Virus record (IMG/VR): IMGVR_UViG_3300030388_001728
Location: 1-23,072 of that record
Direction: 5' to 3' (one strand)
From: a virus
DNA: 23,072 nucleotides
In this document: positions 4,111 through 23,072 of the stretch, in pieces
How the letters are laid out: every line of letters starts with the position of its first letter
How positions within the stretch are numbered: the first letter of the stretch is position 1
Notes under the pieces: model-generated
What the model was told of the DNA's origin: nothing
Databases searched by the model: none
Seen by the model: only the letters and a program-made list of their open reading frames with translations
Position numbers and translations under genes: made by a program

Positions 4111-7100
4111 TGAGTGCTTTAAATAGATCAATGTTTAAAAAACAAATTGTTAATCGTGAAGAAGGCTCGCCTCTAGAAGGAGAAGATTCATCAGGGGGTA
4201 TTGGGCAAGCTCTTTTACAATCTATTAAAAATTTTGCTACTAATGGTTTTACTATGAATGATACGGAGATGTTAGATGAAAGCAAACAATTAATTGATCA
4301 AGGAAGGGATCATGTTCTTAATGAGTTTGAATTTAGTCTTTTATATCCTGGTGTAAGTTTTGATTCTGTTACAATAGAAGAACGAACTATTGGAGCCAAT
4401 AGTAAGGATATGAATACATTAATAGAAAAAGAAGCACAATTACGAGAACAAGAACCAGATATTAGTGAGGGAGAAGAAGGTTATCAATATGATTTTGATA
4501 TAGATGGTGAAAATAAAAGTTTTGGTTTTGATGAAAAATTAGCTCCTTCAGGTGTAGAATCTTTTAGAGAAAAATTAGGTATTACTGCTGATCCTAACTC
4601 CGTTGTTCGTGAAGGAGAGTTAATGAACATGATGGATCCAAACTCCGTTGTTCGTGAAGGAGAGTTAATGAACATGATGGATCCAAACTCCGTTGTTCGT
4701 GAAAGCGAAACACGATTTAGACAAATGGGATCTCCTCCTCAAGGGGAAATGATAGAAGAACAAGTTGATGTAGAAAATGTTGGTATTATGGATGGCTTTA
4801 GTGGTGGGGAAGAAGAAACTGCTGCAGCTGTATTAGAAGAAGGGGAAAGATCTAAAAAAGAAATTGATGATGCAAGTACTTATGACGAATTGATGAAATC
4901 GGTTCGAGGTGATGATTTAAGTGAAGAGGAACGCCGTCAAGAATTAGCTTCTGTTGTAGGAGAAAAAGATGCAGAAGAAACACCTGATAGTGTATTAGCT
5001 CTTGTTCAACCTGTTTTACAAATGTTAAATGAAGACACGGCTAATACCGGTATTGGCCAAATAGAAGAAGGTCAAGAAATGGCTAATGTTATGCCTACGC
5101 AAGCAGGAGCAACAGATGCAATGGCTATGATGATGCCTGAACAACCTGTTGGTGTAGCTGATGGTGGTTATATGAGTTCTTTTCCCAATCAAAATATGGG
5201 AACACAATCATTAACAGCAAGTGATAACATAGATGACCGCATTATGCAGAATCTACAATTTGAAAGAATGGCTCCAGGAATGATGGGCTATGCTGAAGGA
5301 GGCTTAGTTCAACCGTACGCCTTAGGAGGGGACGTACGCCCCATCCCAAAGTACTCTAATGGTACTAGTTCTTTAGGAGCAACTATTAATGATACCACAA
5401 CTAGTAACAGTCTTTTAGATAATACTCTTTTAGATGATGAAGTAGTGGAGGAAGCTGAACCATATGATCCAACTACTACAGATTTTTTAACACAAATATT
5501 TTCTCCAGAAGCAGGACAAAGTGCCTTAAAAACAAAATATGATACTAATTATAAATTATTTTCTGAAATTTTAGGTGGTCAAGGACCAAGTAAAGATGAA
5601 ATGATTGGAGAAATATTAACAAGTGTTGTAAGTCCTTTAGCTTTTAAATATGCTCAAGGTGAGGACATTCAAGAAGTATTAGCTGCGGGAACACAAGCAA
5701 TTGGAAAAATATCACAGAAATATTCTGCTGGGAAAAGAAAATCTGAAAGTGAAATTAAATCAGCAGCATTAGCTCAAGCTTTAAAACCTGCTCCAGATGA
5801 TCCTTTGGTAGCAGTATATTTAAAAGATGATCCATCAACTCTTGATGTAGACGAAAGTATATCACAAATACAAATTACTACATCACAGTTAAAAGCAGAT
5901 GCACTAAGACCTATAGGAGAAAAGTTATATACAAATAATTCTACAGCTATGGCTCTTGCAGAGTTAGCAAAAACACAAGGTGAAACTGATAAAACAACTA
6001 CAGAAAATGCTATACTAGATGTTGAATTATATTATGCAGATGAATATGCAAGTTTAGGAATAAAAGAACAAAAACAATTAGTTAAAAGCATAGAGATTAA
6101 AAATAAAATTGATAATGCTATTGCTAGTAATAAACCAGGAGAGCTAGAAGCAGCTCTTAAATCTGTTAATCTTGATAACATTGCTAAGTCAATAACGAAT
6201 GAAACTTTACGTCCTAAACTAGAAATAGAATTAGAAACTTTATCTGTTAATCTTGATCAAGAAATTCAAAATTTAAAAATTAAAGAAATTGAAGCTAACT
6301 TTACACAAGAAGAAAAAGAATTAGGTGTAGAAGAAAGACAAGGAATTATTGACGAAAGGCTTCAGACTATTGACTTTAATAAAAACAATAACATTCTTTT
6401 ACTAGAGCAAAAAAATGCTGAGATAGATAATATTATTCTTACAGGTAAAAATATAGATCTTGAAAATGAATATAAAGTTCTTCAAAATCAATTTGCTGAA
6501 GAGGAATTTAGTTTAGAAAATGAAGCTCTTCTTCTTGAGAATATTAATAAACGATTGAATAATACTAAGCTTTCTATAGGAAATGCATACTTATCAACAG
6601 AAAAGAAACTAGGTATTGATAAATTAAAATTAGATATGGAAATGATAAATGAAAATATTTCAGGGCAAATGTTGCAGAATGAAAAAATTCTTTTAGATTT
6701 AAATAACTATGATGAAAAAACTTTCTTAGAATTTCAAAAGCAAAGAAGAGAAATTGAAAAACTTGAATATGATTTGGCTAATCCTCCAAAAGATTGGTCA
6801 CAAATAAAAGTCCAAGCAGAGATGCGTAATAAATGGAACTTGTCTCCTATGACTGTAAACATGAGAGATAAACAAGGATTTATGGAAAATCTTGTTAGTA
6901 ATGCAGGTGAAAATACAGGTGCAGGTGATTTAAGCTTTATTTTCCAATACATGAAAATGCTTGATCCTCGTTCCGTTGTTCGTGAAGGAGAATTTGAAAC
7001 AGCTAAAAAAACTGGAGGCCTCCCCGCTAGTGTTTGGGCAGCATATGAAGGAATTAAAAATGGTAGACTTTTATCTGCTCAAGTAAAAGCTGATTTCCTT

Positions 7101-10004: not shown

Positions 10005-11354
10005 ATGGGTTGGTTTGGATTTGGAAAAAGTAAAAAGAAAAGCAAAGATGCTAATACTAATTCATCAAGTTCAAATTACAGTTCTGATAATTATTTACAA
10101 GCATCTGGAATAGGTAGTCAAATTGCTAATGATCAAATTGATACTTTAATTGCTAATAAAGATAACTTACAAAATCAAGCAGGCACAGTTAATGTAAACC
10201 CAAAGTTTAACGATTTTTTAGAAAGAAATAAAAGAGATGATGGCTCTTATAATTCTGCAGCTCAAGCTATTATAAATCAATATGATACTGGAACAAATGC
10301 TTACCAACAAGAGATGCAGAAGATTATTAATAGTAGTCCTTCCGCAGCTCAAGCTTACAAAAAAAGATTTCCTATATCTTCTGGAATTGCAAAATTAGCG
10401 GGGGCAGCTACTAATCTTATTCCTGGTGTAGGAATGGCAAAAGGAATTTTAAAAGTTTTAGGTAATTTTGGCAAAGGAACAAAAAATATTTTTAATCAAG
10501 CAAAAACAGGTATTACAAGTTCTGGTGCTTATAATGATTTTAAAGACTTAATTACTAAAGACGAAAAGCCTCCAACAGATATGGGTACCCGAAAAAGCAA
10601 TATAGATTATGATGATGCAAGTAATCCAAGAGGAATAAACATGGCTGATATTTCTGGTCCTTCTACATCAACAGATATTATAGAAATAAAAGACAACAAA
10701 GTTAAGACAAAAGATAATATTGACAAAGTAAATAATGCTCAAAAAACTTTAACAGAAGCTTTAGATGTACAGAACTTTAAAAGAACATTAGATAATCCTT
10801 CTGCTATTGAAACTTTACCTGTTAATTTTAAATCAACATTAGATAAACTCTTACAAAATAATCAATTAAATTCAAGCGAGATCCTTAGATCCCAACAATT
10901 ACTAAGAGATTTTTCTACTCCTAGCACTGTAGGACCTGTTACTAATGGATATAATAATTCAGGGATTACTAATACCCTACCTACTAATCAAATAGCAGGG
11001 GGATTTGGCACAGGATTAGAATATCTTTTAAATAATGAAGCAATAGAAAAAAGAAGTGGCTCAAAGGGAGTAAATTTAAATACATTGGGTAAAATTCAAG
11101 AGGGTATAGGAACAATAGATAATAATTTAAATAAATTTAATATTGATTTAAATAATATAGGGCTTAATAATAATTTTGGTCAAGGCTTAACTAGTGGGTA
11201 TAATGCTATTAAATCTACTCAAGATGGAAAAGGTTTTGATGTAGATATTAATAATAGAAGATTAGAGTACAATAAAGATTTTTTAAATGGTAAGATTAAT
11301 ACTTATATTGATCCAGAAAATGTCGGAATTGGTTGGAGTACATCAATTGGATAA
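10005..11354 (+). CDS. Asn-rich predicted virion protein, 449 aa
   Basis: The start codon directly abuts the preceding stop. The N terminus is Trp/Gly then strongly basic (MGWFGFGKSKKKSKD), followed by a Ser/Asn-rich linker. Residues about 123-155 form an amphipathic or weakly hydrophobic segment (SSGIAKLAGAATNLIPGVGM) with a Lys-rich follow-on. The rest is polar and Asn/Thr-rich, becoming very Asn-rich near the C terminus (LNNIGLNNNFGQG), which suggests beta-solenoid-like or flexible structure. The 'MGxFG-K/S-rich' beginning is common in phage internal proteins beside the tape-measure/ejection cluster. I recognise no catalytic motif. It ends inside the start of the membrane/coiled-coil gene. 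A structural role is inferred from neighbours. Confidence 0.55.
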   Translation: MGWFGFGKSKKKSKDANTNSSSSNYSSDNYLQASGIGSQIANDQIDTLIANKDNLQNQAGTVNVNPKFNDFLERNKRDDGSYNSAAQAIINQYDTGTNAYQQEMQKIINSSPSAAQAYKKRFPISSGIAKLAGAATNLIPGVGMAKGILKVLGNFGKGTKNIFNQAKTGITSSGAYNDFKDLITKDEKPPTDMGTRKSNIDYDDASNPRGINMADISGPSTSTDIIEIKDNKVKTKDNIDKVNNAQKTLTEALDVQNFKRTLDNPSAIETLPVNFKSTLDKLLQNNQLNSSEILRSQQLLRDFSTPSTVGPVTNGYNNSGITNTLPTNQIAGGFGTGLEYLLNNEAIEKRSGSKGVNLNTLGKIQEGIGTIDNNLNKFNIDLNNIGLNNNFGQGLTSGYNAIKSTQDGKGFDVDINNRRLEYNKDFLNGKINTYIDPENVGIGWSTSIG

Positions 11355-11556
11355 GGATTTTAATTTAAGAAATGTGGTATGGTTCTCCATGATCCTTGTG
11401 AGTGCCGGGATTGTTTATGGTATGTTGTCTCAAAAAGTAATAGCTTTAGAAACAAAACAATCTCAATTAGAAATGATAATACTCCAAGACATACCAGAAA
11501 TAAAAGAACGCGTGATACGACTTGAAGTATTATTAGAACAAATTATAGAGAGTTAA
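11347..11556 (+). CDS. Holin-like small membrane/coiled-coil protein
   Basis: I choose the TTG at 11347 (GGAG 8 bases upstream), giving 69 residues and an 8-base overlap with the previous gene. The ATG at 11320 is an alternative nine codons earlier, with a poorer ribosome site. The protein has a short charged N terminus (MDKDFNLRN) and one transmembrane helix at about residues 9-26 (VVWFSMILVSAGIVYGML). A heptad-rich coiled coil follows (KVIALETKQSQLEMII...IRLEVLLEQIIES). This single-span plus coiled-coil layout is like XhlA-type or other accessory lysis proteins, and the position at the end of the late block fits. No endolysin is visible beside it, so a lysis role is tentative; a membrane-anchored virion or spanin-like factor is possible. 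Confidence 0.6.
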   Translation: MDKDFNLRNVVWFSMILVSAGIVYGMLSQKVIALETKQSQLEMIILQDIPEIKERVIRLEVLLEQIIES

Positions 11557-11559
11557 TTT

Positions 11560-11790
11560 TTATATATCTCCATGTAATTTTTCTGATAATTTTTCACTAT
11601 CATCATAAGAAAAAAGAACTTTTTCCTCTGATTCTTCATCAATATTATTTGGAATCTTGATACTAGATATTTCCCTAGTCCATTTATAAGCTAACTCCAT
11701 ATCATCTATTTCATTAGTAATTTTATTTTTAAATTCTAATAAAACATGAATTAAGATATTTCTTTCTTTTTTACTTAATTTAATATTCAT
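11560..11790 (-). CDS. Small acidic hypothetical protein, 76 aa
   Basis: This encodes 76 residues with a good AGGAGA Shine-Dalgarno before the ATG. The product opens with a basic helix (MNIKLSKKERNILIHVLLEF), then EIDDMELAYKWTREISS, and ends in an acidic tail (DEESEEKVLFSYDDSEKLSEKL). I recognise no family. It is the last gene on the leftward strand and ends 3 bases from the stop of the convergent holin-like gene. It has its own promoter region (11801-11840), separate from the replication operon, so it is likely expressed at a different time or level from polA. The charge pattern (basic front, acidic tail) would suit a small regulator or inhibitor, but that is speculation. Confidence 0.65.
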   Translation of the reverse strand: MNIKLSKKERNILIHVLLEFKNKITNEIDDMELAYKWTREISSIKIPNNIDEESEEKVLFSYDDSEKLSEKLHGDI

Positions 11791-11800
11791 AATTTCTCCT

Positions 11801-11840
11801 TTATATTATATTATATTATATTATATTATACTAAAGTCAA
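11801..11840 (-). promoter_or_regulatory. Promoter with six TTATA pentamers forming overlapping -10 boxes
   Basis: Positions 11801-11830 are six perfect TTATA units, read on the - strand as TATAA repeats. Every junction therefore forms a perfect TATAAT. A TTGACT -35 element lies at 11840-11835, 4 bases beyond the array. In-phase TATAAT boxes fall at spacers of 14 and 19 bases from it (17 is optimal). The only gene it can drive is the 76-residue one, whose ribosome site starts immediately after the array. Promoter identity is strong by sequence but untested. Confidence 0.65.
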
Positions 11841-11865
11841 GAAAATAATTTTTATGAAAAAAAAT

Positions 11866-13731
11866 CTAAGTTGCATCTCCCCACGATTTTCCTACATCGC
11901 AATCAACTTTACTTGGCACAGACAAAGAAATACAGTTTTGCATTATCTCCATAATTTTATTTTTTACTTTTTCAGAACCATCAAAACTTAAAGTGAGTTC
12001 ATCATGAATTTGTATTAGAGGAGTCAATCCTTCTTTATATAATTCTATCATTGCTTGTTTTGTTTGATCGGCTGCTGATCCTTGAATTAATCTGTTCAAT
12101 GCTTTGTAAGTCCCCGCTCTTTTTAAATGATGATGTTTTCCATATTTTATTTTAGCTTGATCTAAAGGTAAAGCCTTAAATACACCAAAGGTAGTTGGTT
12201 CCCATAAATCAAACCGACATTTTCTGCCTTTTAAAGTTGAGACATAACCTTCACTATTAGCATAAGTAGAAACCCTCATTGCTAAATCCTTAACAAAAGG
12301 AACTTTAATATTGTACTCTGATAATATTTCTTTTGCAACAGTAACATCAACTTGTAATTCATTAGAAAGTTTGTTTACACCCATACCATAAAACAAGCCT
12401 AAATTAATAGTTTTAGCTTGATCTCTTTCTATATTAGCAATGTCAGCTACAATATTATGGAAATCAGCATTAGGATTTTTTTGATATTCATCTACAATAG
12501 TCTTTGCTCCACTACATCCAAGTTTAAAAGCATAGTGTGACGCGATCCGTGGTTCTTGTTGAGAGTAATCAAAACTACCCCAGATCTCTCCTTCTTCAGG
12601 TAAAAATAATCCTCGAATTTGTTTTTTAATTTCTTTATTACGAGAAGGTAATTGTTGTAAGTTTGGATTAGAATAACTTAACCTCCCTGACACTGTTCCT
12701 GATTGGCCATCTCTCATCTGATGGATACTTGCATGTATCCTGCCTGTTGCTCCATGATGAATAATAGTGTCTAAAAAAGTAGATTGAACTTTATTTATTT
12801 CCCTTGCACTTTGTATTTTTTGAGCAATGGGGTGAGGATGCTTTAATAAAAAATCTTTTGTAAAACTAGGTGCCCCTGTTTTCTCTGTTCGTGGGTATTT
12901 TATTTTAAGTTTGTCAAAAACTTTTTGAATTGAATTTGCAGCCCAAATATCCACTGCAATACCCGTGTCTGCAAGAATACTACCCAGTATCTTCTTTTCT
13001 GTAACTTTAAAACTTTTTTTATAACTTGCTGCTTTTTCAACATCAACACGTACTCCTTTTTTAATCATTTCAAAAATAATAGGAATTAATTCCATTTCTA
13101 ATTTGTAAACACTTGTTAAACTTTCTTTTTCTATAATAGGCCTCATGTGATGGTATAGTCGTAAAGTTAAATCAGCATCTTGCTCTGCATACGTCCCTAC
13201 AAAAATAGCAGGTAATTTATACATTTCACTTTTAGGATTAACTCCAAATTCTACAGCAGCTTGCTTTAACAAATTCTCATCTTTGTATTCATTAAGCATA
13301 TCTTTTCCTACAGCGTTTAATGCATACGAAAATTTATTCTCATTAATGATAGGAGCCATGATCATTGTGTCAACAATTGGTCCTTTAACATCAATTCCTT
13401 CAGCATAAAGCCAACCTAAATCATAAAGAGCATTATGAGCTACTTTTATAGCATCATTTTGCATTAATTTTTTAAACCATGCCATAACGCGCTTACGATC
13501 CCAATTGAAGCCATTTTCGTGTCTTATGGGGTAATACCCCTTCCAGCCTTCTACAGCGACAGCTACACCTATGATATGACCTTTTTTTATTGTCCACCCT
13601 GGACCATTGGTCTTCAATTCAGGATCATATGTCTCTAAATCAAATGCAATGACTTTTGCGTCGGATAAATCAGGTAACTCATGTGGAGGTACCCATTCTG
13701 ATTGTGTAAATCCAAAATTATGTTGCATCAT
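11866..13731 (-). CDS. polA: Family A DNA polymerase with 3'-5' exonuclease domain
   Basis: This 621-residue protein is the replicative polymerase. The N-terminal DnaQ-like proofreading domain has Exo I D31/E33 (AFDLET), Exo II N100/D104 (AHNALYD) and Exo III Y181/D185 (YAEQD). The polymerase domain has the VSGRLSYSNPNLQQLP signature (348-362), motif A FDYSQQEPR with catalytic D388, motif B R436...K440...Y448 (RDQAKTINLGLFYG) and motif C HDE at 576-578. All catalytic residues are present. There is no 5' nuclease domain, as usual for phage enzymes of this length. The residue equivalent to E. coli Pol I Phe762 is Leu444. Motif A has Gln-Glu-Pro in place of Ile-Glu-Leu. The gene overlaps the upstream DUF6378-like gene by 14 bases and ends the replication operon. 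Confidence 0.96.
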   Translation of the reverse strand: MMQHNFGFTQSEWVPPHELPDLSDAKVIAFDLETYDPELKTNGPGWTIKKGHIIGVAVAVEGWKGYYPIRHENGFNWDRKRVMAWFKKLMQNDAIKVAHNALYDLGWLYAEGIDVKGPIVDTMIMAPIINENKFSYALNAVGKDMLNEYKDENLLKQAAVEFGVNPKSEMYKLPAIFVGTYAEQDADLTLRLYHHMRPIIEKESLTSVYKLEMELIPIIFEMIKKGVRVDVEKAASYKKSFKVTEKKILGSILADTGIAVDIWAANSIQKVFDKLKIKYPRTEKTGAPSFTKDFLLKHPHPIAQKIQSAREINKVQSTFLDTIIHHGATGRIHASIHQMRDGQSGTVSGRLSYSNPNLQQLPSRNKEIKKQIRGLFLPEEGEIWGSFDYSQQEPRIASHYAFKLGCSGAKTIVDEYQKNPNADFHNIVADIANIERDQAKTINLGLFYGMGVNKLSNELQVDVTVAKEILSEYNIKVPFVKDLAMRVSTYANSEGYVSTLKGRKCRFDLWEPTTFGVFKALPLDQAKIKYGKHHHLKRAGTYKALNRLIQGSAADQTKQAMIELYKEGLTPLIQIHDELTLSFDGSEKVKNKIMEIMQNCISLSVPSKVDCDVGKSWGDAT

Positions 13732-14065
13732 TTTTTTCCTTTATATATTTTGCTGTTTCTCTTCCTCGTTTTTCACCTTCTGATTCAAACGATTTGTCTT
13801 TCGTGGTTCGTGCTTCAATTTCTGCAGCTATGCACGCATAAGCTGCCATATCAATGTAACTATCTTTTTTATGTTGATTCATGAGACGTGCTACTTTTAC
13901 CAAAGCCATACAGATAGCAACATCATGTGCTGTAATTTTTTTCTTTAAAAATATAGACCAGAAGTCTGCAATGTTTTGATGATTTTTTAATTTGTCTCCG
14001 TAGTCTGTTTGTCTATCACCACCAATTAATTTCTTTGCTTCATCTAAAAGTTCTTGCGATATCAT
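13718..14065 (-). CDS. DUF6378-like phage protein
   Basis: This encodes 115 residues. The visible pattern is GDRQTDYGDKLKNHQNIADFW near the N terminus, then ITAHDVAICMALVKVARL, followed by KKDSYIDMAAYACIAAEIEAR. The GDR..DYG, the W...L, the DVA..M.L.K.AR and the DS.ID.A.Y.. elements match the phage protein family I know as DUF6378, which is usually found among replication genes and has no settled function. The protein is all-helical, with conserved acidic residues that could bind a metal or nucleotide, like all-alpha NTP pyrophosphohydrolases. That comparison is a guess. The start overlaps the helicase stop (ATGA) and the stop overlaps the polA start by 14 bases. It is translated as part of the replication operon without a visible ribosome site of its own. 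Confidence 0.75.
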   Translation of the reverse strand: MISQELLDEAKKLIGGDRQTDYGDKLKNHQNIADFWSIFLKKKITAHDVAICMALVKVARLMNQHKKDSYIDMAAYACIAAEIEARTTKDKSFESEGEKRGRETAKYIKEKNDAT

Positions 14066-15552
14066 ATCAAATAACCGTCTGCTGTTGATGCTTCTACAAT
14101 ATATAAATTTTCTTTAGCTCTAGTAAAAGCCACATAAAAAACTCTATGCTCATCATCAGGATTTTTAACATAAGCTCTATAAACTAATCTACCAAGATCC
14201 AATAAGACAACAACATTATCACACTCACCACCTTTAGCTTGATGTATAGTCGATACACGGATTCTTGGTTCACCTTTTATATCTTCTCCTATTCGCTCTA
14301 ATCTTCTTAAATAAGCAATATCAAACTCAGTAATCTTATCCATTACCTCATGCCATTCTCCATCTACAAGAAGACCATGATCTTTTTTCAAATCTTCTAA
14401 GTTAAATAAAGATTCTTCATCTTTTCCTTTAAATGTTTTACCTCCTCTTTTAATACCTGTACCTGATTTAATTTTATTATATAAATTTTTTACCTCTAAT
14501 AAAGATATAGGAGTCCCATTTTTTAAACGTCGCCAAGTATCAATAGCATCTAAGGTTGAAGGAACAACGGGTCGATGTTCTCCTCTTCCATACCATAAAC
14601 CACTATCTTTTAAAAAAGACTCTATTTTTTCATTTCTAATTTTTTTTGTTCTACCTAATATTAACCAATTACCGCTAGATAAATCCACATGTTTTAAGTC
14701 AGCTACTTGATTAATTTTTCCTTCCTCCTCTTTAGGTTTCCAAACTTTTTCTCTTCTGTTTCTAACTTTGGAAATAATACGATTAGCTAATTCATAAACA
14801 GTTTTTGGACAACGATAAGACTTATTAAGCACTGTAACATTTCCTTCTAAGTTAATAAAACGATCAACATCAGCACCTGACCAACGAAAAATAGCTTGAT
14901 CATCATCTCCAGCTATATAAGTTTGTTTACTATTTTTAATTAATTTATCTACCATATTATATTGTATTCGAGGCATATCTTGTGCTTCATCGATAAAAAG
15001 AACATCAAACTGTGTACTAAACGTGTCAGTAGTGTAATTGACAATCATATCCGTAAAATCAAATAAATTATTTTCTTTCTTATAATCAATAATGCATCGA
15101 TTAAGATAATCTAATTTAGGCCAATTAATTGTATGATCCCCACTATTCCATGCATCTTCCAAAGAAATATCTTGTAATCTAGACATATTAATTAAATTAA
15201 CAAATTTATGATTAGAATTAGAATAAATTGAATCGTCATTTGTATCAAAAACTAAATCAAAACCTATAAGACTTGATAATTCTTTCCAATGTTTAGATTT
15301 CATTAAATTATTTCTATCAACAGGGAGGCCTCTATAGGCAAAACTATGTAGGGTTCTAAAGTGAACTAAATCATCTTTACTTGCTTGAAATTTATCACGA
15401 GCTCTATCTCTAGCTTCATAAGCAGCTTTCTTAGAAAATGAAAAAAATCCAATTTTATCCCAAGAAACACCTTGTTCTTTTTTCTGCCTACAAATATCTA
15501 AAAGCTTAGTGGTTTTCCCTGTGCCTGGTGGTCCTAAAATTATATTAATCAT
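14062..15552 (-). CDS. UvrD/Rep-like superfamily 1 DNA helicase
   Basis: This 496-residue ATP-dependent helicase has every SF1 motif: motif I GPPGTGKTT (7-15), motif Ia FSFSKKAAYEA (38-48) and FRTLHSF (65-71), motif II DEAQD (188-192) and motif III GDDDQAIFRW (215-224). Motif IV is SYRCP (245-249), motif V STIHQAKGGE (434-443) and motif VI VAFTRAKENLYI (474-485). It is shorter than bacterial UvrD/PcrA (about 700 residues), so the accessory 1B/2B domains are reduced, as in phage enzymes such as Dda. It probably unwinds DNA during replication or recombination, moving 3'-5' if UvrD-like. It lies between primase and polymerase genes, overlapping the primase stop by 4 bases. No recognisable DnaB-type replicative helicase is present in the window. 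Confidence 0.93.
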   Translation of the reverse strand: MINIILGPPGTGKTTKLLDICRQKKEQGVSWDKIGFFSFSKKAAYEARDRARDKFQASKDDLVHFRTLHSFAYRGLPVDRNNLMKSKHWKELSSLIGFDLVFDTNDDSIYSNSNHKFVNLINMSRLQDISLEDAWNSGDHTINWPKLDYLNRCIIDYKKENNLFDFTDMIVNYTTDTFSTQFDVLFIDEAQDMPRIQYNMVDKLIKNSKQTYIAGDDDQAIFRWSGADVDRFINLEGNVTVLNKSYRCPKTVYELANRIISKVRNRREKVWKPKEEEGKINQVADLKHVDLSSGNWLILGRTKKIRNEKIESFLKDSGLWYGRGEHRPVVPSTLDAIDTWRRLKNGTPISLLEVKNLYNKIKSGTGIKRGGKTFKGKDEESLFNLEDLKKDHGLLVDGEWHEVMDKITEFDIAYLRRLERIGEDIKGEPRIRVSTIHQAKGGECDNVVVLLDLGRLVYRAYVKNPDDEHRVFYVAFTRAKENLYIVEASTADGYLI

Positions 15553-17162
15553 AAAGGTATATCCACTTCATCTATATTTTCTCCCCCTAATACTTGATCT
15601 TCTTTAGTAACCTTATTATTTTTAATATTAATTGGAACAGGAATCTCTACTAGAGATCTCTCGAAAGCAGGGATAACCCAAGCTCGTGTTTGTATTTTTC
15701 TAACTGCTACAGTTATATTTTCCCCTCCTATATCTTTTAATCGTTGGACAATCCACACACGTTGGACTTTAAAATTCTTGCTATTCTCTAACCATTTAGA
15801 TAAATCAACTAAACGAAAATATGTTGGAATAGCTTTAAAAGTAGTTTCATTCTTTTTAAATTGTTTAATATTCTCATCATCAGTAAAAGATTTTTGCATT
15901 TCTAATTCATCTATAGAAAAAGAATCTCCTCTTGATAAACAAAATTCTTTTAAATAATCTAAAAATTCTCCTACCTTAGACACATCAGAAGGAACCTCAT
16001 CTATCTTAATTTCTTCAAATAGCATAGCAACTATCTCTTCCCAATCATCGGCTTTAACTTTAGGAACATAAATTTTTAATTGTTCTCCTACCATTTTTCT
16101 AAACAATGCATGAGCATATAAAACACCTAAATCATTAAACTCTACTCTTTTATCTCCTACATTTAAAAACCAAATAGGAGGTATACTATCTAAAACTGAT
16201 AACTCGCTATAGGTTGGGTGATCAGCCGTTGAATGACCAATTCCATGTTTTCTTAATTTACATAAAGCTTTTTGACAGACAGAAGAAATAGGAGGTTCTT
16301 TACAACGATAAAAATATTTAAAGTCACCATCTGGTTTTTTCTTCCCAATTTGTTTTTGTAATGTAGTTACTTCAGTAGCATTTAAAGGAGGATCCATATA
16401 ATTCCTGTTATAGGCCTCAAGTAAATCTTCCCAATCATCAGGATTAGCCTTACGATAAAAAACTCCAATATTAAGTAATCCATTATTTCTTGTTCCTTCG
16501 GGGAAACCTTGTGTAGTTAATACTTGTAGACATGGGGGACCATCCTTTATGACATCTTGTTCTACCTTGATTGCGATTTTGCTAATATCATCACAAACAT
16601 ATTTGTCGTATAAGTCAAAGAACTCGTCAAGAGAAGCACCCTCACCATTGTCAAGAAACGCGTACCGTGTCTCACCATGATAAGGAAGGTTCAGCCATGA
16701 ACCTGAGTCTTTTTCATTGGCTAGTTCTGTTTGTTTAGGGAAAACTTCTGTATTTGCATATCCGATGTAAGAAGCAATCTCTTTAAGTTTTTGTTGGAAG
16801 ATAGCTGCTGATTGTGGATTTTTGGAAAAAAGAAAAATATGTGCACCAAAAGATTTGGATGAACACATTATTAATGGTAATTTATATTTTCGTATTTTGG
16901 ATAATATTTTTTTGTGATCTAGGGGGTATTCGTCAATATCAATACATCCCCAAGTACAAGTGGCATCGTCACGAATGGGAACTATGCCAAGAGCAGGCAT
17001 CTTTCCATCAAGATGATCTAAATACATTTGCAATGTAGGTGGTTCGTGTTTCGTGAACATTTTACCATCTCGTTTTCCATTCAGCTTAGTTTCTGAATAA
17101 CGATACTCTCCATGAACCCGGTCAAGACCTGTAAATATATGTTTAAATTTTTCTGCTTTCAT
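15549..17162 (-). CDS. Archaeo-eukaryotic-type primase (TOTE-like AEP domain)
   Basis: This 537-residue protein is a DNA primase of the AEP superfamily. The catalytic core shows motif I DIDE (75-78, after WGC), motif II SSKSFGAHIF (101-110, the S-x-H type) and the EVFPKQ (139-144) ... GSWLNLPY (154-161) pair typical of the primase domain described from TOTE conflict systems. A PEGTRNNGLLNIGV segment (221-234) matches the helical C-terminal primase extension. Three cysteines (C287, C296, C301) in RCKEPPISSVCQKALC could hold zinc or an iron-sulphur cluster. The rest looks like a winged-helix or regulatory region. The ATG has no Shine-Dalgarno upstream, only an AU-rich leader after a strong hairpin. 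It presumably lays primers for the Pol I two genes downstream. Motif evidence for the AEP core is good; priming in vivo is inferred. Confidence 0.88.
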   Translation of the reverse strand: MKAEKFKHIFTGLDRVHGEYRYSETKLNGKRDGKMFTKHEPPTLQMYLDHLDGKMPALGIVPIRDDATCTWGCIDIDEYPLDHKKILSKIRKYKLPLIMCSSKSFGAHIFLFSKNPQSAAIFQQKLKEIASYIGYANTEVFPKQTELANEKDSGSWLNLPYHGETRYAFLDNGEGASLDEFFDLYDKYVCDDISKIAIKVEQDVIKDGPPCLQVLTTQGFPEGTRNNGLLNIGVFYRKANPDDWEDLLEAYNRNYMDPPLNATEVTTLQKQIGKKKPDGDFKYFYRCKEPPISSVCQKALCKLRKHGIGHSTADHPTYSELSVLDSIPPIWFLNVGDKRVEFNDLGVLYAHALFRKMVGEQLKIYVPKVKADDWEEIVAMLFEEIKIDEVPSDVSKVGEFLDYLKEFCLSRGDSFSIDELEMQKSFTDDENIKQFKKNETTFKAIPTYFRLVDLSKWLENSKNFKVQRVWIVQRLKDIGGENITVAVRKIQTRAWVIPAFERSLVEIPVPINIKNNKVTKEDQVLGGENIDEVDIPL

Positions 17163-17178
17163 AAATATAAATAATAAC

Positions 17179-17233
17179 TAGGGGCGAAGTGAAACAACAT
17201 TTCTAACAGGTTGTTAGATTAATTTCGCCCCTA
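17179..17233 (-). promoter_or_regulatory. GC-rich nested hairpin in the replication operon, before the primase gene
   Basis: In the 98-base gap between the primase start and the possible ssDNA-binding gene, TAGGGGCGAA (17179-17188) pairs perfectly with TTCGCCCCTA (17224-17233). Inside it TCTAACA (17202-17208) pairs with TGTTAGA (17212-17218) across a 3-base loop. The outer stem is the most GC-rich stretch for hundreds of bases. On the - strand it is followed by an AU-rich run, not a clean U-tract, and then the primase ATG. A leaky terminator, an RNA-processing site or a translational control element are all possible. Confidence 0.7.
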
Positions 17234-17260
17234 TTCTAGAAAATTAGAAATAGTAAGTAA

Positions 17261-18085
17261 CTAAGATCCTAAAACGTTAGTATCCACATTTGGAGTAACA
17301 TCTTTGATATCTTCATTCGCATCATTTAAAGCCTCTGGTGTTGGATCAATTGATCCAGAAGTCACAAGTTCATGAAAGTTTTTGGCTTCCTCAACTAAAA
17401 AAGATGGGTTCTTTAAATCATTAACAGATTTTTCTAAAACAATTTTCCATCCCCACCAATCATTCTTTTTATTTTGCTCTTGTATTCCTTCCATTCGGTA
17501 TACATTTGCAAACATAGGAAGAGTAAATAATGACCCATTTGATTGTTGAATTTTCTGATTCATCATCATTGTATTCCAATAACGTGATTTTTTATATTGA
17601 GTCTTTTGCATAATGATCTGACATCTTTCAAAAGTTCCATCTTTATTTAATCGTAAAACAAAGTACTCCGCTGTTCTTACAATATAAGTAGGACTCATTG
17701 CACCATCAATCATATAATGATCTTCACCATCGGCACCTCTAGTCAAAGGAGGAATGTCTTTTGGTTCATAAATTTTTACTGGAGCTCCTGTTCCTTCACC
17801 TAAAGGGGACCATTCAACACCTCTAACACGAAATGCACATGGTATAACACTTACACCTTTGTAAAAATCTTTAGTAACAGAATTAAAAATATCACCTTGG
17901 TCAAGTCCTTCTACAAACTTTGCATTTGATTTTTTAACTTCTGGAGTCTGGGAACTAGCAATCTTTAAAAATGGTATTGCCATTTCTTGTGCATCAACAT
18001 TCTCAAAACCTGCATTAGCAAACTTTGAAAAATCAATAACATTGGTCGATATTTCGCTTTTATTTTTTTTTGTTACATCGTTCAT
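17261..18085 (-). CDS. Conserved phage replication-module protein, possible ssDNA-binding protein
   Basis: This encodes 274 residues, with AGGAAA before the ATG and a 2-base gap from the gene upstream. The core pattern is AIPFLKIASSQTPEVKKSN near residues 38-56, GDIFNSVT, VSVIPCAFRVRGVEW, then YFVLRLNKDG and a W-rich part (KNDWWGWKIVLEKS). The 'PFL+hhQ..SPEV..G.....GD+hN' beginning is familiar from phage proteins encoded next to DNA polymerase and primase, some annotated as single-stranded DNA-binding. The acidic tail with DANEDIKDVT resembles the acidic C termini of SSBs such as T7 gp2.5. An OB fold cannot be confirmed by eye. The gene is followed by the nested hairpin, so its transcript could be processed or terminated there to make more of this protein than of the primase. 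Confidence 0.6.
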   Translation of the reverse strand: MNDVTKKNKSEISTNVIDFSKFANAGFENVDAQEMAIPFLKIASSQTPEVKKSNAKFVEGLDQGDIFNSVTKDFYKGVSVIPCAFRVRGVEWSPLGEGTGAPVKIYEPKDIPPLTRGADGEDHYMIDGAMSPTYIVRTAEYFVLRLNKDGTFERCQIIMQKTQYKKSRYWNTMMMNQKIQQSNGSLFTLPMFANVYRMEGIQEQNKKNDWWGWKIVLEKSVNDLKNPSFLVEEAKNFHELVTSGSIDPTPEALNDANEDIKDVTPNVDTNVLGS

Positions 18086-18087
18086 GG

Positions 18088-18651
18088 TTATTTTCCTTTT
18101 TTTATTTTTACTTTGTTACCTAAAAAAACACTAAAAGTTTCTATAGGAAGCTCTTTGCCCGCGTTTATTTGTTCACCAATAAAGGCATTCAAGGTCATCG
18201 GCTCGACCTTGCGTTTCTGGTCAGGAGCAAGACCATTTTGCTCTAAGTCATTAATTAACTTAGATGCTTGCTCATTATCTCCTTTTCCAAACCTGATAGA
18301 CACAATGTTTTTAATTAACTCGCCATGATTATTATCTTCGAGCCATTTAAAAGCTTCCGCTTCTTTATCACGTGTAATACTGCCTTTAAAAAAAGGTTTA
18401 AAACTAACAGCATCACCATTGGTCAATTTAATTTCTTTAACTCCACGAGATTCCATTAACTGAACAATTGAATCATTCATTTGTTGGAGCTCTTGTTTTT
18501 TAATTTTTGCTTGATGTTCTAAAGCCAGGATCTCGCTTTCAATTTCTAAAAATTTATTAGACGCCTCTGAAACATCCTTCACTTCAGATATATCTACAGT
18601 GTTATTCTCTTCTTTTGGTAAGTAGTTTGTAAAATCAACTTTCTCTGTCAT
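18088..18651 (-). CDS. Coiled-coil phage protein of the replication operon, 187 aa
   Basis: I place the start at the ATG at 18651 (MTEKVDFTNYL) because AAAGGA lies 8 bases upstream. The five-codon longer version places that ribosome site inside the gene. Residues about 30-65 form a coiled coil (FLEIESEILALEHQAKIKKQELQQM). Then comes a conserved-looking part: GVKEIKLTNGDAVSFKPFF, EAFKWLEDNNHGELIKNIVS and a RFGKGDNEQA helix, ending with TLNAFIGEQINAGKELPIETFSVF. I recognise this arrangement as a phage family usually placed next to the putative ssDNA-binding gene, without an assigned activity. It may be an accessory to DNA binding or annealing. It overlaps the upstream gene by 17 bases and is co-transcribed with it. 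Confidence 0.7.
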   Translation of the reverse strand: MTEKVDFTNYLPKEENNTVDISEVKDVSEASNKFLEIESEILALEHQAKIKKQELQQMNDSIVQLMESRGVKEIKLTNGDAVSFKPFFKGSITRDKEAEAFKWLEDNNHGELIKNIVSIRFGKGDNEQASKLINDLEQNGLAPDQKRKVEPMTLNAFIGEQINAGKELPIETFSVFLGNKVKIKKGK

Positions 18652-18988
18652 AATTATTCCTTTCATTAATGTCTATCTGTATGGGGTAGTATGTATAAGT
18701 ACGTCGATCATATTTTAAAACTTTATATTTTCCTCGATTAATATCTGCTGCTATTGAACAAGCTAATCCAATCATTGATGGATCACCTATTAATAACAAA
18801 TAATCGTTGTCATTAAAGTCTTTTAATATGGTTTTTGCCTTACGCACCGCAGGAGCTGGGGACAACATTATCTGTTTTCCTTCTTCAAAGAGTGGCACTA
18901 GTTTCCCATAACCTTGGGCACTAATAACATTAAACTTTGACACCTCTTGGATGACATACACATTACCTTTGTTTTCTAAGTCTTTCAT
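18635..18988 (-). CDS. Conserved phage protein of unknown function, first gene of the replication operon
   Basis: This encodes 117 residues and starts at 18988 about 13 bases after the -10 box of the leftward promoter, so its leader is very short and has only a weak AGAAAG ribosome site. The pattern is VYVIQEVSKFNVISAQGYG, LVPLFEEGKQIML, then DNDYLLLIGDPSMIGLACSIAADINRGKYKVLKYDR and YPIQIDI. The 'DDYLLLhGDPhhIGhAxAhAAxxNxGxhxhLKWDR' element is one I associate with many marine phage genomes. It probably forms a small alpha/beta fold, and the GDP...I..A.A...N.G element may bind a ligand or a partner. The function is unknown. As the promoter-proximal gene it is likely made early. Confidence 0.72.
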   Translation of the reverse strand: MKDLENKGNVYVIQEVSKFNVISAQGYGKLVPLFEEGKQIMLSPAPAVRKAKTILKDFNDNDYLLLIGDPSMIGLACSIAADINRGKYKVLKYDRRTYTYYPIQIDINERNNYDRES

Positions 18989-19000
18989 CTTTCTAAATTA

Positions 19001-19029
19001 CCTATATTATTTTAATTTACATTGTACAA
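19001..19029 (-). promoter_or_regulatory. Sigma70-like promoter for the replication operon (divergent region)
   Basis: On the - strand TTGTAC (19029-19024) and TATAGG (19006-19001) are spaced by 17 bases. The 84-base gap between the divergent first genes (starts 18988 and 19073) holds this and a weaker + strand candidate, TTTACA (19016-19021) with TAATGG (19039-19044), also 17 bases apart. The two overlap, so rightward and leftward transcription may compete. Confidence 0.5.
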
Positions 19030-19072
19030 GAAAAAAGTTAATGGTTAAGTAATTTTTTTAATCGCAGAAAGT

Positions 19073-20530
19073 ATGGAAAAATATAATTATAATTTTAAAA
19101 CCAAGCCCTATGGTCATCAATTGGCCGGTATGGGAGCTATGATAAACCATTTTTCTAAGGGAGAAAAAGAATTTGCTCTTCTTATGGAAATGGGCTGTGG
19201 AAAAACAAAAGTTTTAATTGATGGATCTGCTTTTCTTTATGATAATGGTTTTATTGTTGGCCTCCTTGTTATCTGTCCTAATGGTGTTAAAGGAACCTGG
19301 GTAAAAGAAATAGAAACACATATGCCTGAACATGTTGATTGTAATATTGTTGTGTGGACAGGGCAAAAAACTAAAAAACATGGAGAAGAATTACAAACTT
19401 TATTTAACACAGAAACAGTTCATCTTAATATTTTAATAATGAATGTGGATACGTTTGCTACGGATCGTGGTAAAAAATTTGCTGATAAATTTTTAATGAC
19501 AAGACAAGCAATGATGGTTGTTGATGAAAGCACTGTCATTAAAAACTCAACGGCACTTCGTACTAAAGCTATTACAAAGCTTGGTAATTTAGCACGCTAC
19601 CGGGTTATTATGACAGGTTCTCCTATAACAAATTCTCCTGAAGATCTTTATGCTCAATGTAATTTTTTAAATCATGAGCTGCTAGGGTTTAGTTCTATCT
19701 ACACTTTTCGTGCTCGGTATTGTCAGTTACAACGATTATCTTTTGGTGGAAGATCCTTTAATAAAGTAACAGGGTATAAAAACTTAGAAGAGCTAAATAC
19801 CAAATTACAAAAATTTTCTTATCGTGTCTTAAAAAAAGATGCATTAGATCTACCTGATCAAGTATGGATGAAAAGAATTGTATCCATGACTAACGAACAA
19901 CTTGATGCTTATATGCAAATGAAGAAACATGCATTAGTGCAGCTCAAGGAAGAAACATTGACAACAACGTCAGTGCTCGCCCAGTTAATTAGACTCCATC
20001 AAATTGTTTGTGGTCATATGGCAACGGATGACGGTAAAGTTTTATCGTTGCCAAATAACCGTGTCAAAGAATTATTAGCCATTCTAGAGGAAGGCTATGG
20101 AAAAGCGATTATCTGGGCGAATTATAGACATGATATTCAAAATATTGAAAAGACATTAATAAAGAAATATGGAGCGCGATCCGTGGTCACTTATTATGGT
20201 AGTACTCCTCAAAGGGACAGACAAGAAAACATTAGAAGATTTCAAGAAGATGATGAAACACAATTCTTTATTGGTCAGCCAATGACAGGTGGGAGAGGGA
20301 TAACATTAACAGCAGCTAACTTAACTGTTTTTTATTCTAACAGTTATGATCTTGAGATTAGAGAGCAAGCAGAAGCACGCAATCATCGTATTGGTACAGC
20401 AAATAAAGTCACTTACATTGATCTTGTTTCGCAAGGTACTGTGGATGAAAAAATTATTTATTCATTGAGGAATAAAATAAACTTAGCAACATCTGTGTTA
20501 GCTGAGGATATCCGTAAATGGCTAATATGA
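19073..20530 (+). CDS. SNF2-type superfamily 2 helicase/translocase
   Basis: This 485-residue protein has the full SF2 set. It has a Q at 16 in KPYGHQLAGM, Walker A MGCGKTK (40-46) and Walker B DEST (151-154; SNF2-like proteins vary the DEAH box). Motif III is MTGSPI (180-185), motif V GGRGITLTAA (406-415) and motif VI Q432..AR436..RIG. Between the RecA-like domains is the SNF2-like CQLQRLSFGG...LDLPDQVW insertion. At about 485 residues it is a minimal two-domain enzyme without accessory domains, as is common in phages. It may remodel or translocate on DNA at replication forks, or act in recombination or repair. It starts the rightward transcript divergent from the replication operon and overlaps the next gene by 13 bases. 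Whether it has helicase activity cannot be told by sight. Confidence 0.92.
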   Translation: MEKYNYNFKTKPYGHQLAGMGAMINHFSKGEKEFALLMEMGCGKTKVLIDGSAFLYDNGFIVGLLVICPNGVKGTWVKEIETHMPEHVDCNIVVWTGQKTKKHGEELQTLFNTETVHLNILIMNVDTFATDRGKKFADKFLMTRQAMMVVDESTVIKNSTALRTKAITKLGNLARYRVIMTGSPITNSPEDLYAQCNFLNHELLGFSSIYTFRARYCQLQRLSFGGRSFNKVTGYKNLEELNTKLQKFSYRVLKKDALDLPDQVWMKRIVSMTNEQLDAYMQMKKHALVQLKEETLTTTSVLAQLIRLHQIVCGHMATDDGKVLSLPNNRVKELLAILEEGYGKAIIWANYRHDIQNIEKTLIKKYGARSVVTYYGSTPQRDRQENIRRFQEDDETQFFIGQPMTGGRGITLTAANLTVFYSNSYDLEIREQAEARNHRIGTANKVTYIDLVSQGTVDEKIIYSLRNKINLATSVLAEDIRKWLI

Positions 20531-20754
20531 TTTGTCCTCGTTGTAAAGGTAATGGATATTTAAAACTATGCTTTGAAGCAGAGAATACTATAGAACAATG
20601 TTGGGTGTGTAATTCTACAGGGGAGGCCGATGAGACTAAACATTTTAGTCAAACATGGCAAGATGGAGATGATAACGAAAGTTTTCGCACACTTTATTAT
20701 GGTCCCTTACTTGATCCAGATGGGTTTAAAGACTATAGAATAGAAAAAGAATGA
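20518..20754 (+). CDS. DnaJ-like zinc-ribbon small protein
   Basis: This encodes 78 residues with two zinc-knuckle halves: CPRCKGNGY at residues 6-14 and CWVCNSTGE at 28-36. This is the CxxCxGxG type found in DnaJ cysteine-rich domains and in many small phage proteins, predicted to bind one zinc. The rest is polar, with a Tyr/Asp-rich tail (YYGPLLDPDGFKDYR). It overlaps the SNF2 helicase by 13 bases; GAGGA lies 9 bases before its ATG, inside the helicase gene. The coupling suggests it is made with, and may assist, the helicase, but no direct role can be shown. Confidence 0.8.
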   Translation: MANMICPRCKGNGYLKLCFEAENTIEQCWVCNSTGEADETKHFSQTWQDGDDNESFRTLYYGPLLDPDGFKDYRIEKE

Positions 20755-20966
20755 TTAAAGTATTTTTATTAATGTTAATGATGCATGCTCCAGGTATGCC
20801 TACTGTAAAGTATCAAGCCTATGTTTTACCTACTTTAGAAGCGTGTGAGAGTGCCAGAACGGTAAGAGAAAACCTTGCACATTACATGGCAAAACAACGA
20901 GGTATTGATGTAATATGGATAAAAAGTGCTTGCATAGAGATGGATGTGTTCACTCAAGAAATTTAA
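20751..20966 (+). CDS. Small predicted exported protein, 71 aa
   Basis: The start overlaps the preceding stop (ATGA). The 71-residue product opens with a hydrophobic segment (MIKVFLLMLMMHAPGMPTV) like a signal peptide or membrane anchor, with a single Lys and then Leu/Met. The remainder is soluble, with two cysteines (ACESAR and KSACIEM) that could form a disulphide in the periplasm. Similar short 'MIKVFLLhhMhxxPGMPTVKY' proteins are familiar to me from marine phages, with no function known. Export would allow a role at the envelope, such as superinfection exclusion or lysis timing, but this is speculation. The next promoter begins right after its stop. Confidence 0.7.
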   Translation: MIKVFLLMLMMHAPGMPTVKYQAYVLPTLEACESARTVRENLAHYMAKQRGIDVIWIKSACIEMDVFTQEI

Positions 20967-20968
20967 TA

Positions 20969-20997
20969 TTGTTTATTACTTAAAATATAGGTATAAT
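20969..20997 (+). promoter_or_regulatory. Strong-looking sigma70 promoter before the 65-aa CxxC gene
   Basis: TTGTTT (20969-20974) and a perfect TATAAT (20992-20997) are separated by exactly 17 bases. The predicted start would fall near 21004, giving a leader of about 20 bases to the ATG at 21026. Such a site inside a compact + strand series implies separate, possibly strong, expression of the small gene that follows. Confidence 0.72.
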
Positions 20998-21025
20998 TCG
21001 CTAAAATATTAAAGAAGGCGAGGTT

Positions 21026-21223
21026 ATGTTATTACCTAATAGTCCTGTAAGAAAAATATATGAATGTCACAATTGTGGTGACGTGTCTGTTCATTTTTAT
21101 GATCCTAAACACAATAAAGTTTTTTCTAAAGAAGAGTGGAGTAATGTTTTAGTAGAGGGAAAAGAGGCTTTACGAAAAATTATAAAGCCTCTCACAGAAG
21201 ATCCTAAGTTTTTTACTAATTAA
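21026..21223 (+). CDS. Small CxxC protein, 65 aa, with own promoter
   Basis: This encodes 65 residues, with AGAAGG 7 bases before the ATG. The N-terminal half has YECHNCGDVSVHFYD, a single CxxC pair plus nearby His residues that could bind zinc, alone or as a dimer. It is followed by a charged helical part (SKEEWSNVLVEGKEALRKI). No named family is recognised. It is the last + strand gene before the convergent right-hand block, and its stop overlaps the stop of the 37-residue membrane protein gene. It sits behind the best-matching promoter of the window, and its 3' end encodes a 10-bp hairpin. A small regulator is one possibility, but unproven. Confidence 0.68.
   Translation: MLLPNSPVRKIYECHNCGDVSVHFYDPKHNKVFSKEEWSNVLVEGKEALRKIIKPLTEDPKFFTN
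21163..21192 (+). repeat. 10-bp inverted repeat at the 3' end of the 65-aa gene
   Basis: AGAGGCTTTA (21163-21172) and TAAAGCCTCT (21183-21192) are perfect inverted copies with a 10-base loop. They lie within the coding region, 31 bases before the stop. A T-run (GTTTTTTAC) starts about 16 bases after the stem, too far for a standard intrinsic terminator, so the hairpin may stabilise the mRNA end or help terminate. Confidence 0.6.
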
Positions 21224-21333
21224 GTTTTACTTCTTTCATCAATCATTTTCCCCATTACATACACCATAAATCCAATACCAATTAGGGTTAACAATATTAG
21301 CCCTAATAAAATGTTTGTTATCATCATGCTCAT
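21220..21333 (-). CDS. Tiny membrane protein, 37 aa
   Basis: This short - strand gene encodes 37 residues: a few residues (MSMMITN), one long hydrophobic helix (ILLGLILLTLIGIGFMVYVM) and a charged tail (GKMIDERSKT), so it is a single-span membrane protein. Its ATG overlaps the TGA of the 93-residue gene (ATGA), with AGGAAA a few bases upstream, which strongly supports translation. The stop overlaps the stop of the convergent 65-residue gene. Such mini-membrane proteins in phages are often holin-like, antiholins or exclusion factors; which applies here cannot be told. A start at the third codon is also possible. Confidence 0.62.
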   Translation of the reverse strand: MSMMITNILLGLILLTLIGIGFMVYVMGKMIDERSKT

Positions 21334-21611
21334 TGCAGGTTTCCTCTTGATCCTATGTCATTTTCTCGGTGATAATTGTCAACAACAGTGGAAATCTCAC
21401 TTAAAAAGTTTTTGCAATGCCGCATATCATTTTCTAAGTTTACTATCGCTTTAAACATACGTTTTGCATTGGGGTTTTTATTACCCATAACTTCATCTCG
21501 TATGTAATTATTATTGATTTTATCATACAACTCTTTACTTCGTTTTGAAAATTCTTTTAAAAGTTCTCTTTCTGTCATATCTAAATCAAGTTTAATAATA
21601 TGTTCTGTCAT
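21330..21611 (-). CDS. Helical hypothetical protein, 93 aa
   Basis: A perfect AGGAGG lies 8 bases before the ATG at 21611, and the ATG overlaps the stop of the 45-residue gene (ATGA). The product is 93 residues and mostly charged helix (MTERELLKEFSKRSKELYDKI, then NLENDMRHCKNFLSEIST), with no membrane span or enzyme motif. I do not recognise a family. It is the middle of a chain of overlapping small genes that starts behind the ParB-like gene, and it is coupled at both ends. It may act in host takeover or regulation, as such small early phage genes often do; this is inference from context only. Confidence 0.7.
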   Translation of the reverse strand: MTEHIIKLDLDMTERELLKEFSKRSKELYDKINNNYIRDEVMGNKNPNAKRMFKAIVNLENDMRHCKNFLSEISTVVDNYHRENDIGSRGNLQ

Positions 21612-21745
21612 ACAGTTGCCTCCTCGACAATTTTTTCTAACTGCATAGGTTTAGAAAGCTTTGATTTTTTACAAAGTTTCTCAAGCAGCTTTCGTGTTTT
21701 CGCTGTAATCATTTGATTATAATGTGTTTGTGTTGGTTTTTTCAT
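21608..21745 (-). CDS. Ribbon-helix-helix-like small DNA-binding protein candidate, 45 aa
   Basis: This gene encodes 45 residues, starting at 21745 with AAAGGA 7 bases upstream. The sequence begins KKPTQTHYNQMITAKTRKLL. It is followed by a helix (LEKLCKKSK), a short turn (LSKPMQ) and a second helix (LEKIVEEATV). This strand-helix-turn-helix arrangement, with 'T...LL..L.....LS....LE.IVEEA', is what a minimal Arc/MetJ-type RHH repressor looks like. The TGA overlaps the next ATG. It would be a good candidate for regulating this small-gene operon. The fold is inferred from the pattern; structure prediction would settle it. Confidence 0.58.
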   Translation of the reverse strand: MKKPTQTHYNQMITAKTRKLLEKLCKKSKLSKPMQLEKIVEEATV

Positions 21746-21923
21746 TTTTTTCCTTTGGTTTTAATTTTTTTATTTCATCTCGCAATTCAAAAATTCTTTT
21801 TAATGAATTATCATGCATTTGGTTTAATTCAGTATTAGTGTTTTTTAATTTATTATTGTCCCACATTATATTATTGTATTCCTCTAATAAATTTTTATGT
21901 AATATTCTATAATCTTTAGGCAT
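21717..21923 (-). CDS. Small coiled-coil hypothetical protein, 68 aa
   Basis: I place the start at 21923 (MPKDYRILHKNLL) because its ATG overlaps the upstream TAA (TAATG). A nine-codon longer frame is possible but has no better signal. The product is 68 residues of Asn/Lys/Glu-rich helix (LLEEYNNIMWDNNKLKN, then DNSLKRIFELRDEIKKL) likely to form a coiled coil, with a Lys/Thr-rich tail. There is no recognised family. It overlaps the RHH candidate by 29 bases and shares the leftward transcript with it and with the ParB-like gene. The function is unknown. Confidence 0.6.
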   Translation of the reverse strand: MPKDYRILHKNLLEEYNNIMWDNNKLKNTNTELNQMHDNSLKRIFELRDEIKKLKPKEKNEKTNTNTL

Positions 21924-22123
21924 TAATTGGAACAAGTTGAACGACCACATGATGAACGACCATTTTTTTTTACTCCAATATTTCTATCATAATGTTTCCA
22001 ACCTATAATGCCTTCCTCTGCATCTTCGTGATGGACCTGTAAAAGCAAACCAAACCTAGTCTGCTTACAAAACAACCATAAAAATAAATCTGCTAAATAA
22101 TTAAAAATAAATCGATTTCTCAT
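21923..22123 (-). CDS. Small hypothetical protein, 66 aa
   Basis: AGGAG lies 6 bases before the ATG at 22123, and the start is one base after the ParB-like gene's stop, so the start is well supported. The product has an aromatic, hydrophobic first third (MRNRFIFNYLADLFLWLFC) that could be membrane-associated or a packed helix. It continues with LLQVHHEDAEEGIIGWKHYDR, in which His/Asp/Glu pairs (HHEDAEE) could bind a metal, and a Gly/Ser/Arg/Cys tail (GRSSCGRSTCSN). I do not recognise the family. It is coupled to the 68-residue gene by the one-base TAATG overlap. Confidence 0.62.
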   Translation of the reverse strand: MRNRFIFNYLADLFLWLFCKQTRFGLLLQVHHEDAEEGIIGWKHYDRNIGVKKNGRSSCGRSTCSN

Positions 22124-22124
22124 A

Positions 22125-22943: not shown

Positions 22944-22944
22944 C

Positions 22945-23072
22945 CTATGCCTCCTTGTGATAGTTTTTAATGAACTCATCAACTTTCCATTGATCGTAAT
23001 CAAATTCTTTATCGTCTACATGATCTTTTAAAGCTGATATAAGTAACGAGCCACGCGAACCGTGTTTCGTTG
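22945..23072 (-). CDS. C-terminal end of an unknown protein (partial)
   Basis: A - strand frame enters from the right edge and ends with TAG at 22945-22947, one base before the ParB-like start. The visible 41 residues read TKHGSRGSLLISALKDH and then an acidic, aromatic tail (DDKEFDYDQWKVDEFIKNYH). No domain can be named from this fragment. The ribosome site of the ParB-like gene lies within its last codons, so the two are co-transcribed. The beginning is outside the window. Confidence 0.55.
   Translation of the reverse strand, partial: TKHGSRGSLLISALKDHVDDKEFDYDQWKVDEFIKNYHKEA

Follow-up and report, generated by a model that had tools for sequence, protein, structure and literature searches.

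A ladder of TATAAT boxes behind the DNA polymerase gene of a marine phage group: a candidate promoter at an accessory-gene exchange site

Does a perfect array of short AT-only repeats ahead of a small phage gene act as a promoter, and would changes in its length alter expression of that gene? We examined this question in a 23,072-base virus record (the window, that is, the whole stretch of DNA analysed), whose minus strand reads CTTGACT-TTAG-(TATAA)6-AGGAG-AAATT-ATG at this locus. The array occupies positions 11801-11830 (TTATA x 6.0 with 100% matches according to TRF). It is preceded by TTAG (11834-11831) and by a -35-like TTGACT element (11835-11840), itself preceded by a C (CTTGAC). Perfect TATAAT boxes start on the minus strand at 11830, 11825, 11820, 11815 and 11810, corresponding to spacers of 4, 9, 14, 19 and 24 bases from TTGACT. 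The AAGGAG Shine-Dalgarno sequence (11796-11801) overlaps the array by one base, its first A being also the final base of the array, and the ATG of a 76-codon gene (11560-11790, minus strand) lies at 11790. A first-pass annotation had described six tandem TTATA units within 11801-11840, TATAAT recurring every 5 bases from 4 bases past TTGACT, and an array running up to the ribosome site; all three descriptions are accurate. The spacers of 14 and 19 that it proposed do hold perfect boxes, but they are not the full set, as a TAATAT box with four matches out of six stands at spacer 16.

Nowhere else in the window do two or more TATAA or TTATA units follow one another directly. The perfect period-5 run of 25 excludes a chance origin of the array: the longest such run was 13 among 20,000 dinucleotide shuffles of the 75-base spacer and 12 among 100 shuffles of the window. 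With regard to sigma-70 promoters, TTGACT agrees with TTGACA at 5 of 6 positions, and two candidate -10 boxes lie within the 15-19 spacing range, TATAAT at 19 (11810-11815) and TAATAT at 16 (11813-11818). The TATAAT at spacer 14 (11815-11820) would be a weaker candidate. Expression in E. coli is high with spacers of 15-19 bp and lower, yet above background, with shorter ones (PMC8695583), so that a spacer of 19 is acceptable rather than a defect, and both the 19 and the 16 box should be workable with TTGACT. No perfect -10 box is present at the stricter spacing of 16-18, and the site scores 9/12 in a consensus scan using that rule. Since a consensus promoter scan of positions 10500-23072 gave 57 sites against 62.5 in shuffles (sd 7.4), hence no excess, the consensus match alone carries little weight.

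Other candidate promoters of the window are built differently. The divergent region at 18986-19075 contains TTGTAC-N17-TATAGG on the minus strand (19029-19001), a candidate ordinary promoter for the replication module; in relatives, the same region shows a TTGTAN-like -35, N17 and TATAG or TATAT, and 14 of 15 aligned sequences retain the TTG (by eye). On the plus strand, TTGTTT-N17-TATAAT is found at 20969-20997, and also in G014 and G017. Because these candidates keep a plain 17-base spacer, the ladder spacing of 14/16/19 is unusual for these phages, and the ladder appears to be a different promoter design within the same phages.

The candidate promoter lies downstream of a family-A DNA polymerase gene (11866-13731, minus strand). 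Among annotated phages, the window polymerase is closest to those of 023Pt_psg01 (53.0% identity) and Pelagibacter phage HTVC023P (51.9%). The order of the replication genes is also similar to that of HTVC023P-type pelagiphages (PMC9599517; MN698239). The window phage is a distant relative of the HTVC023P pelagiphages; that its host is SAR11 is a guess from this kinship. In contrast to the window, with its spacer and ladder, the HTVC023P polymerase gene overlaps an endonuclease gene without any spacer (MN698239). For the 76-codon protein, neither PHROGs (E 0.001) nor Pfam (above cut-off) gave a match; homologues were found in L073 (40.5%, E 4e-18) and L008 (39%). Beyond its gene, the opposite module closes with a small convergent gene on the plus strand (11287-11556, listed from its first possible start; in relatives the start is closer to MEKDFNLRN).

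A polymerase search retained 79 loci, of which 68 extend through the end of the polymerase gene and were read; the other 11 stop short of it and were excluded. In L006, L027 and L048, among the 68, the sequence ends within the spacer. Of the remaining relatives, whose spacer is complete, the 53 with a polymerase at about 75-100% identity all show, by eye, a TTG followed by TATAAT-like boxes every 5 bases, and the 12 from viral contigs with a polymerase at 51-56% show no ladder. These 53 relatives and the window provide 29 distinct spacers, all with TTG ahead of the ladder, TTG being the anchor chosen for their comparison. In 25 of the 29, boxes with at least 5/6 matches occupy the 4/9/14 register; in L007, L008, L041 and L073 the register is shifted by one base. 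The mean lag-5 match of the spacers is 0.73, versus 0.44 in shuffles, with a signal per spacer that ranges from clear to not significant (for example L017, p 0.22, and L022, p 0.15). The relatives share ancestry and are not independent. With one mismatch allowed, the ladder core was found in 19 of 20 records, nearly always at this single place. The exact form TTGAC-N5-TATNATATNAT occurs at nine places in 21 records, eight of them behind the polymerase. Taken as a pattern rather than letter by letter, the ladder is conserved in this phage group. Many relatives also carry, between polymerase and ladder, letters like TTTTCTGSGGTAAATTAGATA, which in L168 and L169 form the 3' end of a gene. That gene contains a TSPPYWGLRDYG motif and is presumably DNA methyltransferase-like, and the spacer may carry a remnant of such a gene. 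A TTTTCTG..GTAAA block upstream in many relatives was considered as an activator site and rejected, as similar letters at two other places, in L168 and L169, belong to the 3' end of the putative methyltransferase gene; the block may thus be a gene remnant.

What follows the ladder is much more variable. In the window and its 53 relatives, 54 sequences in all, the first gene behind the ladder belongs to nine families, the largest with 29 members; the L030 sequence is not long enough to reveal one. In L007, L008 and L073 the spacer is common up to the Shine-Dalgarno sequence, where three different genes begin; L005 and L008 have the same gene behind different ladders. The exchanged cassette stops at the convergent structural module. 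A PHROGs scan of ten downstream genes returned hits of unknown function in all cases. The site between the DNA polymerase and the convergent structural module is an accessory-gene exchange site. Across these different genes, TTG and Shine-Dalgarno lie 39-51 bases apart in 26 of 30 spacers. In L018 the distance is 95, and the rule called none in L042, L043 and L066; a better fit by eye in L042 and L066 is an ATG further on, preceded by a Shine-Dalgarno sequence of its own.

The first-pass annotation had predicted that the repeat would change length by slippage. Searching with the 76-codon protein returned one locus, on contig IMGVR_UViG_3300030105_003049 (designated L001, L003 and L082, here L082), which has seven units where the window has six. 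The two sequences are 99.56% identical over the 8,486 bases of the contig. Up to the array they differ by one substitution in 6,413 aligned bases, and past the extra 5-base unit there is no difference in 488 bases; further differences lie beyond, many within one patch. With so few changes on either side of the extra unit, no other position of this stretch is as unstable as the array, in agreement with what slippage predicts. Since a normal read would span 30-35 bases of array, an assembly artefact is unlikely. Length variation is thus documented by two alleles, that of the window (six) and that of L082 (seven).

Such variation would not necessarily affect the promoter. Since one unit is 5 bases long and the -35 element lies outside the array, upstream of it, added units leave the usable spacings unchanged: in a computed series of unit numbers, boxes at 14, 16 and 19 were present at five units or more, and each unit added 5 bases to the leader. 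Six and seven units offer the same usable boxes and would be expected to behave alike. The first-pass annotation was therefore right that unit number changes the distance from -35 to ATG, by way of the leader, but not that it changes the usable -10 boxes between these two alleles. A switch acting through altered -35/-10 spacing is rejected for the six- and seven-unit alleles, and the proposed length-variable expression switch finds no support at the lengths seen. Because gains of overlapping -10 boxes raise or lower the output of E. coli promoters (PMC11661796), unit number may still have a small effect.

We favour, with a probability of roughly 0.6, a sigma-70-type phage promoter placed at the accessory-gene exchange site, with a ladder perfected by slippage and unit changes that would alter only the leader. 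A promoter was also the first-pass proposal, and position, TTGACT, boxes, Shine-Dalgarno and the persistence of the ladder before an exchanged gene all point in that direction. It is weakened by several relatives in which a good box at 19 is lacking and the -35 is poor (TTGCGT, TTGCAT). It would serve the last gene or genes of the minus-strand replication module. RNA polymerase would pair TTGACT with one of the ladder boxes as -10, either TAATAT at spacer 16 or TATAAT at spacer 19, or perhaps the TATAAT at spacer 14. Transcripts would then start at about 11807-11803, 6-7 bases past the 16- or 19-spaced box, with a leader of about 13-16 bases just including the Shine-Dalgarno sequence. The inherited ladder would have been an imperfect run of TATAAT-like boxes, which slippage turned here into a perfect six- or seven-unit array. 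As unit gain or loss keeps the boxes in register, the promoter core would be buffered and leader length alone would change; with four units or fewer the predicted start would fall beyond the Shine-Dalgarno sequence, so that failure is predicted only below about five units. More tentatively, the ladder might be a self-renewing series of -10 boxes beside the exchange site, providing any incoming gene with a workable -10 and a start just before its Shine-Dalgarno sequence, while whole-unit slippage adjusts the leader and leaves the promoter intact. If the favoured reading is right, the repeat varies in natural length without any change in the promoter that it builds, which is the reverse of a contingency switch, and the ladder marks a place where small unknown genes are exchanged within a marine phage group. 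Expression is then predicted to be flat above about five units and to collapse below.

The array could instead be an AT-rich spacer without promoter role, a slippage by-product or a cassette recombination junction, the downstream genes being read from the polymerase transcript. These genes do lie behind the polymerase and on its strand, gene exchange begins right after the ladder, and ladder letters are only slightly more conserved than polymerase third positions (0.63 vs 0.59; 120 pairs, 16 representatives). However, a neutral spacer would hardly retain a ladder in every relative with a complete spacer, nearly unique in each record and with box register and Shine-Dalgarno distance kept. Moreover, the ninth TTGAC-N5-TATNATATNAT place is a second site, in G007, ahead of another small gene (61 codons). 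We regard this alternative as unlikely. Less likely still is a phase-variable or rheostat promoter, in which slippage would set the expression of the 76-codon gene. A short tandem repeat with natural length variants is present, and loss of a unit could matter, as the window has the smallest TTG-to-Shine-Dalgarno distance (39) among the 27 measured, and a seventh unit brings it to 44, closer to the middle. Length-variable repeats do control promoters elsewhere, by varying promoter spacing at hifA/B, porA and nadA (PMC3899988) and also at sabA (PMC4081817). Against this, the -35/-10 spacing is not altered here at five or more units, only two alleles are known, and the ladders of relatives are mostly interrupted at the same site and should slip less.

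Another kind of regulated site, be it a MerR-like promoter, a bidirectional promoter using the symmetry of the -10 or an operator for a phage regulator, appears very improbable. A perfect palindrome, TATAATATTATA, is common among relatives; MerR targets are marked by palindromic spacers of 19-20 bp (PMC1526738), and divergent transcription from symmetric -10 elements is described (PMC12825309). A 19-base spacer is present, but the window proteins scanned gave no match to a MerR-type regulator, the box at 19 is absent in many relatives, and antisense transcription into the polymerase would have no visible purpose. A replication origin or DNA-unwinding element is the least probable of all: an AT-only repeat adjoining replication genes, about one per record, would suit it, but the site lies near the cumulative GC skew maximum where the modules converge, which resembles a terminus, and no origin-type repeats were recognised.

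The TA-repeat of Haemophilus influenzae hifA/hifB and the poly-G of Neisseria porA are likewise short tandem repeats inside a promoter that are altered by slippage (PMC3899988); there, the repeat is the spacer between a fixed -35 and a fixed -10 and each step changes the spacing, whereas in the window the repeat is the -10 ladder and the register is kept. The T-tract rheostat of Helicobacter pylori sabA is also promoter-proximal, with natural length variants (PMC4081817), but it lies upstream of the -35 and shifts UP-like elements, whereas our array lies downstream of the -35 and extends to the Shine-Dalgarno sequence. Several overlapping -10 boxes behind one -35 also characterize the 'homo-gain' cases in E. 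coli (PMC11661796); those boxes arose by single mutations, whereas the window has a five-box ladder with constant 5-base steps, present in a looser form across the phage group. Searches of the open-access literature for overlapping or multiple -10 boxes, and for phage promoters with repeats of variable length, turned up no matching case.

The idea that TATAA arrays form a general type of promoter was considered and rejected, since L082 alone, out of the 51 viral loci in which five or more units occur, had TTGAC five bases ahead. The genome collection contributed three places, and at two of these an open frame follows. In the viral contig L085, (TATAA)5 leads straight into AAGGAG and the ATG of a 340-codon frame, without TTGAC ahead. 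Two further repeats were observed in the window. A 45-base tandem repeat (2.5 copies at 98%) lies at 4590-4703 on the plus strand, within a 1084-codon gene, where the peptide DPNSVVREGE recurs. At 17181-17231, between the genes that end at 17162 and 17261, GGGGCGAA...TTCGCCCC forms an intergenic inverted repeat.
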